Assembly (NCBI GenBank): GCA_035235625.1
Contig: CP141150.1
Coordinates: 8,804,001-8,868,000, forward strand
Length of the DNA stretch: 64,000 nt
DNA from: Saururus chinensis
Taxonomy: Eukaryota; Streptophyta; Magnoliopsida; Piperales; Saururaceae
Direction: 5' to 3'
Numbering within the stretch: position 1 is the first letter of the stretch; every line of letters starts with the position of its first letter. Made by a program: the position numbers and the translations under genes. Under the pieces are notes generated by a model that ran no database searches, was not told the origin of the DNA, and worked only from the letters and a program-made list of their open reading frames with translations. This document shows, one piece after another, positions 44,778 through 57,767 of the stretch.

Positions 44778-45114
44778 GCTTCGGATCGGCTGTGATGCAC
44801 TCCCACCAGATTGGGTGAGAGTGCCCAATAAGACACGCCCACGTCGGATCAGGTAAATGACCCGGGTTCCCCGTTAACCCAAAACGCAACCCGGAGAGCG
44901 ATTCGGGTTTAAGGTCGGGCGACGGGGCGAGCGACGGGTTTAAGGTCGGGCAACGGGTTTAAGGTTACTGCAGTCTGCAGAGCCCTAATCGCCGGACGAC
45001 TCTTCTTCCTCAGGCAACCAAAGACTCTGCCTCTTCCTTCGGTGACCGCGGAGCTCCAATCGCCGGACGGCTCTCAGCGTTCTGGTGAAAGTGCACCACA
45101 GCGGATCAGAAGCG
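44778..45114 (+). mobile_element. Terminal MITE-like unit, left end of the foldback
   Basis: The outer terminus GCTTCGGATCGGCTGTGATG-CACTCCCACCAGA recurs, inverted and diverged, at 45081-45114 as TCTGGTGAAAGTGCACCACA-GCGGATCAGAAGC. This bounds a GC-rich unit of about 337 bp with its own inverted ends. The foldback is therefore flanked by two opposed copies of a small TIR element. Confidence 0.65.
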
Positions 45115-45691
45115 CTCCTCCTCAGTCCTCATTCGATCGCTTTGTGCCCTAGCTCCCTCTCTCAAGTCTCGACTCAATTTTGAAGGTTTCTTTCTCTAGA
45201 GTCTGAGGTTTACTATGTTGGAGACTTGGAGGCTGAACTCTCAAAGGCTTGAAGCTTGCTGAAAGGTGAGGGCCGTAGACTGAAACTTTTGGAGGAGGTA
45301 ACGATTTTGACCTCGCTATGAAGAGCGGCAAATACGCTCTGGTTACAAAACCGTTTTGAAATCTCTAAGGAGCTCCAAAGTTATTGCCTTTTCGTTTGTT
45401 AATCGCCTTCTCATATCCGCTTGTTTTTTCAATTATCTTTTCGAATGATCGGTGCCATGTGCTTTTTGCCGTTTTTAAATTTTGTAAACATCCGGCAAAT
45501 GGACAGAATGAACAAATTTGCTGTGATTTATTATTTGATCTGATCTTATAAAATGAATTTGCTCAGCCTGTTGTGCCTATCAACCTTAAGTTGTCATGTT
45601 TTTAATGGAATTTAGCCACATGAATATCATCCCTTAGCTAATGCGCTGATTATCTGTGAATTGAAATTCTTATACAATATGTATTTTGTAG
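45115..45691. other. Left-arm sequence upstream of the RPL30 exons
   Basis: CT-rich, leader-like sequence followed by intron-like DNA ending in the AG acceptor at 45690-45691. It may be 5' flank of a captured gene, but the RPL30 first exons are absent. Confidence 0.4.
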
Positions 45692-46562
45692 GGAAGCTGA
45701 TAATCATAGCCAACAACTGCCTGCCTCTGAGGAAATCTGAGATCGAGTATTATGCTATGTTGGCTAAAGTTGGAGTTCATCACTTCAATGGAATAAGTAT
45801 TAATGCTACGTTTACCGTCTGGTTGTTTGTCTGTTATGGGGTTGCATTTCTTTTCATAAATGCTGGCTGCATTTTACACCATGTTGTAGATTACGGAATT
45901 GCCTTGCAATTTACCTGCTGCAATGAGTCTCCTATGAAAAATGACGTTTATAGTGAGGGAAGGAATGTCGTATATTATATAATGCTTTGATGCAAAAGTT
46001 CAGTTTCTCTTCTTAGTTGGATGTGAAGTAAATCAGAATTGGTGGACACTAGCACTGTTTTATGCACCTTCTCTGTACGTCAATGACAGTATGATTTAGT
46101 GTGTTATACATATTGTGAAAGGTTTTTTGAGTAGTCGGTGAGATCTTTATCTCATGATTTTCTATCCTTTTGTATAGTCTCTACACATGTTGATGTTTAT
46201 CATTTTGTTATACTTATATATCTGACACTGCCCATGCACTGCAAATTTTGCTGTAGCAAGTCCAACATTTAGTTTTAGTGTATTGATCTTAGTTTGTGCC
46301 GTTCAAACATCAAGATGGTGTGCAATATTCCAATATATGATTTTATGGTTTGTTTTTGTTAGGCAATGTTGATCTTGGTACTGCTTGCGGGAAATATTAC
46401 AGGGTTTTGTGTCTGAGCATCATAGATCCAGGTATTACATATAGCCGTGTTTATATGAAAATTTGCCCTTGAGTAGCCAATTATTTTTTTTTTCTTTCTT
46501 AAGGTGATTCAGATATTATTAAGAGCGTGCCAGGATCACTGACGGAAGCAAAGAGTCTATAG
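45692..46562 (+). pseudogene. RPL30: Captured ribosomal protein eL30 (RPL30) exons, left arm
   Basis: Three exons. The first (from 45692) reads [33 protein letters not shown]. The second (46363-46431) reads [22 protein letters not shown]. The third (from 46504) reads GDSDIIKSVPG. Together they cover most of eL30, a 60S subunit protein, minus the N-terminal exons (the MVAAKK region). Introns with GT-AG borders are kept, so genomic DNA rather than mRNA was captured. A two-base deletion in the left arm (CCAGGATCAC versus CCAGGGGATCAC on the right) destroys the native PGDH end and extends the frame to a TAG at 46560. Confidence 0.88.
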
Positions 46563-46608
46563 TGACAGTAGGTTATAATGTGATGTCGTGCAATGGTTTT
46601 GGAGTTTG

Positions 46609-46822
46609 AAACGAATAAGTAATGTTGCAACTCAACGGGCTAACATGACAGCTGCATTAGGAGGCAAAGACCTTAGCTATTTGCCTGTGGGCTCGTTTGA
46701 TGGACTCAAGTGATTTGCAGGTATTCATGGTTCCAATTCATTACCAAAATCTACACTTGCATCCTCCCAAGCTGGTGGGTTTACTGGTCAGTTGAATAGC
46801 ACAACAAATTTGGGCAATTAAC
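46609..46822 (+). pseudogene. Captured type-B response regulator (ARR-B) exon, left arm
   Basis: Reads KRISNVATQRANMTAALGGK, DLSYLPVGSFDGLK, in-frame TGA near 46711, then FAGIHGSNSLPKSTLASSQA and GGFTGQLNSTTNLG. This matches the stretch just C-terminal to the GARP/Myb DNA-binding domain of type-B ARRs, cytokinin-responsive transcription factors (typical LKRIS, GGKDSSYL, GSLDG). Neither receiver nor GARP domain is present. It is joined about 50 bp after the RPL30 end with no spacer gene. Confidence 0.8.
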
Positions 46823-46921
46823 ATCAATATTAACTGCTTCAGACCCTCCTATCCATCTGTTATATCAATCTTCAATATGATTTACCTCTTTTCTGCTTCC
46901 TCTATTTTGAGGGTCCTATAG

Positions 46922-47384
46922 GTGCGGCCAACTAGTGAAACCATCGTCAACCATATGTTCACTCAGTGGATTCATAGTTATCGTGATCTTCCGCTTATGG
47001 TAAATCAGGTGAGATTTCATATCTATATGCTAATATTCGACCTTCTCATTGGTATATAATTGTTGAAAATTTTCGTAATGTATTTAGTGGGCAAATGTGA
47101 CAAGATGGGAAATGCGTACAAAACCATTTGTGAGGACACTTGAATTCTTATGGCAAGAGGGTCACACTGCTCATGCAACCCCAAAAGAGGTAGCAATATC
47201 ATTGAAATTTTGGAAACTAGTAGAGATACTGTTGTCGATCACATGAGTATAACTTAAAACATATTGCCCTGCTGCAGGCATTGCAGATGATTGGTGTCTT
47301 TGGAAAATTTGCTTATGAGCAAGCTGCCATACCTGTTATCGCATGTATTAAATTAAAGGTTGAAACTTATACAAACAGTAGTTG
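46922..47384 (+). pseudogene. Captured organellar prolyl-tRNA synthetase exons, left arm
   Basis: Three exons with GT-AG introns. 46922-47008 reads [29 protein letters not shown]. 47088-47189 reads [34 protein letters not shown]. 47278-47384 reads ALQMIGVFGKFAYEQAAIPV, IACIKLKVETYTNS, then a stop. These are class II motif 2 and adjacent catalytic-core segments of the plastid/mitochondrial ProRS (Arabidopsis PRORS1/OVA6 type), which charges tRNA-Pro. Only about a quarter of the protein is here. The reading frame of each exon is intact in this arm. Confidence 0.88.
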
Positions 47385-55621: not shown

Positions 55622-55720
55622 CTATAGGACCCTCAAAATAGAGGAAGCAGAAAAGAGGTAAATCATATTGAAGATTGATATAACAGATGGATAGGAGGGT
55701 CTGAAGCAGTTAATATTGAT

Positions 55721-55934
55721 GTTAATTGCCCAAATTTGTTGTGCTATTCAACTGACCAGTAAACCCACCAGCTTGGGAGGATGCAAGTGTAGATTTTGGT
55801 AATGAATTGGAACCATGAATACCTGCAAATCACTTGAGTCCATCAAACGAGCCCACAGGCAAATAGCTAAGGTCTTTGCCTCCTAATGCAGCTGTCATGT
55901 TAGCCCGTTGAGTTGCAACATTACTTATTCGTTT
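55721..55934 (-). pseudogene. Captured type-B response regulator exon, right arm
   Basis: Mirror of 46609-46822, including the same in-frame TGA, which therefore predates the inverted duplication or was copied by conversion. Confidence 0.8.
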
Positions 55935-56000
55935 CAAACTCCAAAACCATTGCACGACATCACATTATAACCTACTGTCACTATAGACTCTTTGCTTCCG

Positions 56001-56853
56001 TCAGTGATCCCCTGGCACGCTCTTAATAATATCTGAATCACCTTAAGAAAGAAAAAAAAAATAATTGGCTACTCAAGGGCAAATTTTCATATAAACACGG
56101 CTATATGTAATACCTGGATCTATGATGCTCAGACACAAAACCCTGTAATATTTCCCGCAAGCAGTACCAAGATCAACATTGCCTAACAAAAACAAACCAT
56201 AAAATCATATATTGGAATATTGCACACCATCTTGATGTTTGAACGGCACAAACTAAGATCAATACACTAAAACTAAATGTTGGACTTGCTACAGCAAAAT
56301 TTGCAGTGCATGGGCAGTGTCAGATATATAAGTATAACAAAATGATAAACATCAACATGTGTAGAGACTATACAAAAGGATAGAAAATCATGAGATAAAG
56401 ATCTCACCGACTACTCAAAAAACCTTTCACAATATGTATAACACACTAAATCATACTGTCATTGACGTACAGAGAAGGTGCATAAAACAGTGCTAGTGTC
56501 CACCAATTCTGATTTACTTCACATCCAACTAAGAAGAGAAACTGAACTTTTGCATCAAAGCATTATATAATATACGACATTCCTTCCCTCACTATAAACG
56601 TCATTTTTCATAGGAGACTCATTGCAGCAGGTAAATTGCAAGGCAATTCCGTAATCTACAACATGGTGTAAAATGCAGCCAGCATTTATGAAAAGAAATG
56701 CAACCCCATAACAGACAAACAACCAGACGGTAAACGTAGCATTAATACTTATTCCATTGAAGTGATGAACTCCAACTTTAGCCAACATAGCATAATACTC
56801 GATCTCAGATTTCCTCAGAGGCAGGCAGTTGTTGGCTATGATTATCAGCTTCC
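56001..56853 (-). pseudogene. RPL30: Captured ribosomal protein eL30 exons, right arm
   Basis: Mirror of the left-arm copy but with the native C-terminus preserved: the last exon reads KSVPGDH and a TGA stop at 56001-56003. All three exons are otherwise open, so this arm holds the more ancestral version. N-terminal exons are missing here too. Confidence 0.88.
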
Positions 56854-57430
56854 CTACAAAATACATATTGTATAAGAATTTCAATTCACAGATAATCAGC
56901 GCATTAGCTAAGGGATGATATTCATGTGGCTAAATTCCATTAAAAACATGACAACTTAAGGTTGATAGGCACAACAGGCTGAGCAAATTCATTTTATAAG
57001 ATCAGATCAAATAATAAATCACAGCAAATTTGTTCATTCTGTCCATTTGCCGGATGTTTACAAAATTTAAAAACGGCAAAAAGCACATGGCACCGATCAT
57101 TCGAAAAGATAATTGAAAAAACAAGCGGATATGAGAAGGCGATTAACAAACGAAAAGGCAATAACTTTGGAGCTCCTTAGAGATTTCAAAACGGTTTTGT
57201 AACCAGAGCGTATTTGCCGCTCTTCATAGCGAGGTCAAAATCGTTACCTCCTCCAAAAGTTTCAGTCTACGGCCCTCACCTTTCAGCAAGCTTCAAGCCT
57301 TTGAGAGTTCAGCCTCCAAGTCTCCAACATAGTAAACCTCAGACTCTAGAGAAAGAAACCTTCAAAATTGAGTCGAGACTTGAGAGAGGGAGCTAGGGCA
57401 CAAAGCGATCGAATGAGGACTGAGGAGGAG

Positions 57431-57767
57431 CGCTTCTGATCCGCTGTGGTGCACTTTCACCAGAACGCTGAGAGCCGTCCGGCGATTGGAGCTCCGCGGT
57501 CACCGAAGGAAGAGGCAGAGTCTTTGGTTGCCTGAGGAAGAAGAGTCGTCCGGCGATTAGGGCTCTGCAGACTGCAGTAACCTTAAACCCGTTGCCCGAC
57601 CTTAAACCCGTCGCTCGCCCCGTCGCCCGACCTTAAACCCGAATCGCTCTCCGGGTTGCGTTTTGGGTTAACGGGGAACCCGGGTCATTTACCTGATCCG
57701 ACGTGGGCGTGTCTTATTGGGCACTCTCACCCAATCTGGTGGGAGTGCATCACAGCCGATCCGAAGC
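57431..57767 (-). mobile_element. Terminal MITE-like unit, right end of the foldback
   Basis: Inverted counterpart of 44778-45114. The outer end is the reverse complement of GCTTCGGATCGGCTGTGATG, and the inner inverted end is at 57431-57464 (GCTTCTGATCCGCTGTGGTG). Confidence 0.65.

Follow-up and report, generated by a model that had tools for sequence, protein, structure and literature searches.

A palindromic Pack-MULE of Saururus chinensis with captured host gene pieces in long arms homogenized after copying

The element at positions 44778-57767 of a 64,000-nucleotide window from Saururus chinensis (contig CP141150.1, positions 8,804,001 to 8,868,000 of the forward strand) is a non-autonomous Mutator-like element (MULE) of 13 kb that carries pieces of at least four host genes, a Pack-MULE, and its palindromic arms were homogenized after it separated from a second copy in the same genome. 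We observed MULE-type ends and target duplications, counterpart loci for the cargo, a relative with single-copy cargo, junctions shared between copies, homogenized arms, recurrence of palindromes and, elsewhere, transposase between matching ends. Together, these results make it likely that one end of a Pack-MULE was copied in inverted orientation through a template switch, that the product transposed as a palindrome, and that its arms have since been subject to conversion.

Structure, cargo and classification of the element

Self-alignment of the window gave two inverted arms (44778-49973 against 57767-52569) that are 99.27% identical over 5206 aligned columns and enclose a loop of 2595 bp, which bears out the giant foldback with near-identical arms of about 5.2 kb described in an initial annotation of this DNA; a repeat finder returned the identical arm blocks (44778-49973 and 52569-57767). 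The arms differ by 35 substitutions among 5192 sites, plus indels. An empty site, a tandem duplicate of the insertion locus that lacks the element, runs uninterrupted through the insertion point: its left part (7106-8173) corresponds to 43710-44777 at 99.3% and its right part (8168-8967) to 57770-58569 at 98.5%. This site establishes that the 13-kb element is a real insertion and fixes its boundary. The features are as follows.

7106-8967, + strand: empty site, the tandem duplicate of the insertion locus
44770-44777: left target duplication, imperfect, AGTCTAGT
44778-44857, + strand: terminus, (C)GCTTCGGATCGGCTGTGATGCA..., mirrored at 57688-57767 (- strand)
44778-49973, + strand: left arm, its first 2489 bp substitution-free against the right arm
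45312-46608, + strand: captured RPL30, starting within exon 2 and extending beyond the stop, introns and 3' end included, mirrored
46605-46815, + strand: captured type-B response regulator piece, 93% to C4:4652128-4652338, mirrored
46818-47544, + strand: captured prolyl-tRNA synthetase (ProRS) exons and introns, 92-93% to C8:38533913-38534951, mirrored
47571-47777, + strand: segment common to other MULE-family members, probably not a captured gene
48270-48880, + strand: AT-rich array of short palindromic repeats within the arm, mirrored in the other arm
49970-49977: arm/array junction with GCTA microhomology, identical in both palindrome copies
49974-52568, + strand: loop of 2595 bp with AT-rich repeat array, block b, filler, asparaginase piece and MULE-family sequence
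49974-51125, + strand: second part of the AT-rich array, for which the closest match is the b-side of the lone array carried by the non-palindromic relative on contig C2
51226-51252: loop filler junction, the filler resembling sequence about 30 bp away and lying at the same place in both copies
51328-51990, + strand: captured asparaginase first exon and flanks, single copy, 85% to C1:20046439-20047152 (L048)
52569-57767, - strand: right arm, with the RPL30 piece mirrored at 55973-57231
57768-57775: right partner of the target duplication, GTTCTACT; the empty site reads AATCTAGT

The initial annotation had placed intron-containing fragments of RPL30, a response regulator and organellar ProRS in the arms and an asparaginase first exon in the loop. 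Comparison of these captured exons with candidate parental genes returned counterpart loci on four contigs (C2, C4, C8 and C1) at 85-93% identity (92-93% for the arm pieces), in agreement with that description. The RPL30 piece is 92% identical to the gene at C2:36171388-36172709 (L036) and has a one-base deletion near its start; its joined exons matched eL30 structures (E = 1.6e-52), and its frames gave Pfam matches of E = 5.3e-4 and 0.026, both below the curated cut-offs. The joined exons of the ProRS piece, from which about 290 bp of the parental locus are missing, matched prolyl-tRNA synthetase (E = 6.8e-34), and its first two frames gave weak Pfam matches (E = 0.094 and 0.14, below the curated cut-offs). 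The exons used as RPL30 and ProRS queries were joined by eye. The response-regulator piece was identified by reading its translation and from a locus that shares 93% DNA identity with it and encodes 34/38 of the same residues, and the loop exon, read straight through, matched asparaginase/beta-aspartyl peptidase (E = 9e-10). No Pfam match was obtained for the response-regulator, third ProRS and asparaginase frames. None of the captured pieces spans a complete gene, and the retained introns indicate capture at the DNA level. Judged by sequence identity, the four matched loci may be the parents or close to them. We considered 45041-45313 as the 5' end of RPL30 and rejected it: five loci that match it (L031-L035) have no eL30 coding match, two of them also show an element terminus, and the RPL30 gene in L036 aligns to the element from 45312 only. 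The segments 44778-45313 (terminus to RPL30), 47571-47777 and 51985-52291 are probably native to the MULE family, not captured genes, since they recur in other members.

The ends, the target duplications in relatives, the transposase-bearing partners and the cargo identify the element as a Pack-MULE. When the genome was searched for the 22-bp terminal pattern, allowing up to 3 mismatches, a check suggested in the initial annotation, 103 forward and 108 reverse matches were found (211), compared to 0 forward and 0 reverse matches for the same pattern read backwards. Among 100 of the 211 terminal sites, which are those listed for the census of pairs, 39 pairs lay within 30 kb (ten at 8.4-8.8 kb and 17 at 19.6-22.5 kb). 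The MULE transposase domain PF10551 was present inside 18 of these 39 pairs (150 best of 2831 candidates scored), with frames of 454-863 codons in 16 of the 18, one with an internal stop. The member starting at C11:778669 holds a MULE domain (E = 2.4e-20), and a locus on C5 at which only one terminus was found holds a FAR1 domain (E = 9e-13). No transposase was seen inside the 13-kb element, as initially reported, and none of the 10 frames tested there gave a MULE match; it would be expected to move in trans, by the MULE transposases of larger members that share its terminal motif. Two groups of terminal pairs deserve mention. Giant MULE-type elements of 20-22 kb (e.g. C6:20365401-20387675) have transposase frames of up to 863 codons and have possibly been active recently. 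The ten size-uniform pairs of 8.4-8.8 kb among the sites listed (e.g. C11:9869204-9877754) include 6 that hold a segment similar to the element loop (51904-52650).

Target duplications within the 8-11 bp of Mutator elements were found in relatives, and that of the window copy is imperfect. The expectation that duplications would recur at other loci was upheld in part, with 9-10 bp in several relatives (below), an ambiguous case at C4:9791219 and none seen at four others (C2:45116616, C11:778669, C2:54919086 and C11:34805277).

C3 copy: GTCTCGATG, 9 bp, or 10 with the preceding G
C7:17503637: GAGTTGATCG
C7:27388839: CTCGCCGAG/CTCACCGAG
C4:6685000: CCACCCAAAC
C7:36159025: ATGTGGGTAG
C8:32268179: AGGAAACTTC
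C6:6350141 and its duplicate: GGAAGACTTG

CACTA elements have CACTA termini and a 3-bp target duplication, and Helitrons have neither terminal inverted repeats nor a target duplication. Assignment to CACTA or Pack-CACTA was rejected on the termini, (C)GCTTCGG, and the 9-10 bp target duplications in relatives, and assignment to Helitron on the inverted termini of the element and the target duplications in relatives. Its inverted arms, which are very long and contain short repeats, also place it in the Foldback class, a label of structure and not of lineage.

A second palindrome copy and homogenization of the arms

The element is not a one-off: palindromes of other content exist, and a second copy lies at C3:47639055-47652310, with arms of 5246 and 5276 bp that are 98.6% alike and a clean target duplication of 9-10 bp. 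The C3 loop is homologous to the window loop and colinear with it after the element is turned round. Because the two copies have in common the inner arm end, the arm/array junction with its GCTA microhomology, the filler position and the loop order, the palindrome itself is most likely older than its two copies.

In an alignment of all four arms, 65 of the sites that divide them two against two unite arms within a copy and 1 unites arms across copies; outside the repeat array the corresponding counts are 51 and 0. Two-by-two indels behaved in the same manner (5/5 within a copy, 2 of the 5 lying in the array), and a tree built from these arms plus the single-copy C2 relative groups the arms by element (support 98.8/100). 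Left and right arms differ by 35/5192 substitutions in the window copy and 47/5244 in the C3 copy, compared to 93-109 between copies, and the loops of the two copies differ at 35/1288 in the part compared. The longest substitution-free run of the window copy (2489 bp) lies at the outer end and that of the C3 copy (1817 bp) in mid-arm; with differences left unmerged, neither run was reached in any of 20000 shuffles. Since the arms match within copies although the palindrome predates the copies, the arms were homogenized after the copies had separated. The overwriting tracts probably differ between the two copies, and the process responsible would be arm-to-arm gene conversion.

Single-copy relative, formation of the palindrome and genomic setting

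Nearly the same cargo is present once, about 4% diverged, at C2:45116616-45125072, in an element whose second terminus is of a different type and whose asparaginase part adjoins the sequence of the arm's inner end. This relative indicates that capture most likely preceded inverted duplication, as the initial annotation had suggested. Its blocks run T-a-A1-A2-b-c-d-e-T', and those of the palindrome T-a-A1-c-A2-b-filler-d'-c'-A1'-a'-T. The start of A1 resembles the a-side of the one array that the relative has, and A2 is closest to the b-side of that array, as a path of switching and copying predicts.

Palindromes were also found in a second lineage, marked by a 347-bp ProRS piece. The palindrome at C7:17503637-17514563 has arms of 3.3 kb (98.9%) and a perfect 10-bp duplication, a copy from C2:3563972 onward has one arm shortened, and a 3.6-kb palindrome at C7:27388839-27392449 has arms of 1.43 kb (98%). 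Frames of another captured gene may lie in the loop of this lineage. Its non-palindromic relative at C4:6685000-6692315 also has a perfect 10-bp duplication, and its odd end is of the same type as that of the C2 relative (88% over 321 bp); in both lineages this unlike end is absent from the palindromes read whole. Among the 6 loci around the 347-bp piece, two of which were read only in part (C8:32487000 and C9:24949500), 3 are palindromes and the one on C4 is not. Sixteen first-lineage regions were read. Two are palindromes, on C3 and, as a short palindrome of the outer 0.6 kb with its left end cut, at C7:3578516-3579745; 6/16 have diverged inverted ends (pieces of about 0.1-1.6 kb, 83-93%), and in the remaining 8/16 no long arms were seen within the part read, whose limits cut some of them. 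Two members, C6:2014807-2020075 and C6:6350141-6355427, contain RPL30 and response-regulator pieces and no long arms; their flanks resemble each other (a wall-associated-kinase-like gene), they face opposite ways on the same contig, and they are probably a segmental duplication.

We propose that the palindrome derives from an ordinary element that had two unlike ends and carried its cargo once. A polymerase engaged in repair or replication would have switched templates at short homologies, so that one end and the cargo were copied back in inverted orientation and replaced the other end. On the simplest path, the switch would lead from d back to b on the opposite strand with the filler copied locally, one arm would then lose A2-b by deletion, and a tract copied from it into the opposite arm would bring in c and end at GCTA, such inter-arm copying having lengthened the palindrome to 5.2 kb. 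Once complete, the palindrome would have transposed as a whole to two or more sites, and the arms within each copy would go on overwriting each other by gene conversion. In this account we infer the direction of change, the template switching and the order of steps.

Several observations weigh against it. The structure is known here from the assembled sequence alone. No target duplication was found around the C2 relative, which may for this reason have been rearranged. The one element with a transposase domain for which the ends were read carries terminal repeats of about 2.4 kb that are 94.9% alike, has only the outer 68 bp (86.8%) and AT-rich array units in common with the 13-kb element, and showed no clean target duplication. 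Array alignments are ambiguous owing to the short repeats, and merging neighbouring differences outside the array weakens the identical run of the window copy (p = 0.017, and 0.063 at the widest merge); that of the C3 copy gave p = 8e-5 (0.002 at the widest merge). In the second lineage the four-arm test is weak (7 sites within a copy vs 1 across), the arms are 0.96% and 1.31% apart within a copy vs 1.28-1.77% between copies, and the longest identical run is modestly unusual, being reached in 412/20000 shuffles.

Other explanations account for parts of these data. Independent formation of the two palindromes from single-arm elements likewise predicts that arms within one copy are most alike, would require no later conversion and is in keeping with palindromes having arisen more than once in the family; however, the inner arm end, arm/array junction, filler position and loop order are all common to the copies, and repetition at the same bases is improbable, so that we consider this origin unlikely. 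Somewhat less probable still is a composite of two elements inserted in inverted orientation and joined by internal deletion. Family members with abutting termini do exist, the C2 relative with its left end being an example, but the loop junctions show microhomology and locally copied filler, and a scan of the C3-copy loop, the one loop scanned, found no terminus (22 bases, up to 6 mismatches).

Hairpin loci of such form feed small-RNA pathways, and read-through of the element could give long double-stranded RNA together with small RNAs directed at the native genes, with selection keeping the arms identical. In favour of this, 286 21-base words of the L036 RPL30 locus (introns included) also occur in the arm; yet the identity of the arms extends over introns and MULE sequence, not exons alone, and homogenization requires no selection, leaving this explanation about as improbable as the composite. 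Near-identical inverted arms are also the classic form of a misassembly, and the initial annotation had named a mirrored or collapsed contig as what would overturn its reading. This was not borne out and is very improbable given the uninterrupted empty site in the window, the 35 substitutions and the indels between the arms, the C3 locus with the same structure within its own flanks and clean target duplication, and the palindromes of other content elsewhere in the genome.

The element apparently sits in an intron, between exon-like frames of a phosphofructokinase-like gene that were read by eye, the next of which starts near 57842; the sole domain support for this gene is a PF00365 match of the upstream frame 43591-44019 (E = 2.8e-4, below the curated cut-off).

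44097-44228, + strand: exon-like open frame of the phosphofructokinase-like gene, left of the element

The empty site belongs to a tandem duplication of about 9 kb (3-8967 and 35889-58569) with 93.6% identity in the first 7.1 kb and 98.5-99.3% in the last part, a shift that suggests conversion or selection between the copies. Elsewhere in the window, 61398-61501 is a perfect self-complementary simple-repeat stretch of 104 bp, and three tandem P450 frames (PF00067) lie at 10829-12448, 26895-28502 and 32944-33657, two full length and one partial. The first of these is CYP89A2-like; among the best 120 relatives listed, its top identity was 65% (Aristolochia), with Magnolia and Tasmannia close and Musa at 57-60%.

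Known systems and meaning of the palindromes

The element resembles Pack-MULEs in its MULE-type ends, the 9-10 bp duplications of its relatives, its intron-containing host fragments, its non-autonomy and its presence in more than one copy, and departs from them in that its arm cargo sits in a 5.2-kb palindrome. Ferguson and Jiang (PMC3310237) describe MULEs with duplicated terminal repeats, in which acquired sequence can join the extended repeats; in the available portion of that paper we found no description of arms of the present kind. Long inverted repeats of this general sort are already known in other transposons. In Galileo, a P-superfamily foldback element of Drosophila, the accessible parts of two papers (PMC3573991, PMC4168063) report terminal repeats that lengthen by recruiting internal sequence, reaching 1.26 kb at the longest in D. 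mojavensis and about 1.6 kb at the second longest in D. willistoni, and inserts in one repeat that may be transferred to its partner; it has been proposed that one repeat is repaired from its partner over too long a tract (PMC3573991). By analogy, Galileo is a mechanistic precedent for arm lengthening. It differs in transposase superfamily, and the 13-kb element has longer arms and host genes, together with evidence for the movement of one palindrome and the later homogenization of its arms; those parts mention no captured host genes for Galileo, and no test of arm homogenization on shared junctions was found in them.

As far as the available text of each source extends, the Tm1 Mutator/foldback family of root-knot nematodes (PMC3169594) has foldback-like composite repeats and 9-bp target duplications, but its described element is about 1.1 kb and the repeats within one element average 93% alike. 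The FoSTeST model for Pack-TIRs (PMC8277862) invokes template switching at microhomology as a route of capture; it concerns animal elements and covers capture, not arm duplication. Palindromes of sex chromosomes (PMC7023750, PMC8981503) likewise have arms kept alike by conversion, but are chromosomal and not mobile. In the literature covered, with subscription papers mostly outside its scope, we found neither plant MULE palindromes with multi-kilobase gene-bearing arms nor arm homogenization in them.

The lengthening of inverted repeats in DNA transposons and the remodelling of Pack-MULEs have so far been argued largely from end products. Here, one genome holds single-copy elements with unlike ends, palindromic derivatives and two copies with shared junctions, which makes it possible to read off in what order the events took place and how the arms later exchanged sequence. 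These elements form a natural system in which conversion between arms can be tested outside sex chromosomes, and they are a candidate source of hairpin RNA derived from host exons. We lean slightly towards a broader interpretation, in which palindrome formation is a recurrent and heritable state of this MULE family, arms with captured genes evolve in concert by conversion, and hairpin RNA is a possible product. If this is true, captured host exons would be kept as two matched inverted copies, and these elements would be a mobile counterpart of the palindromes of sex chromosomes.

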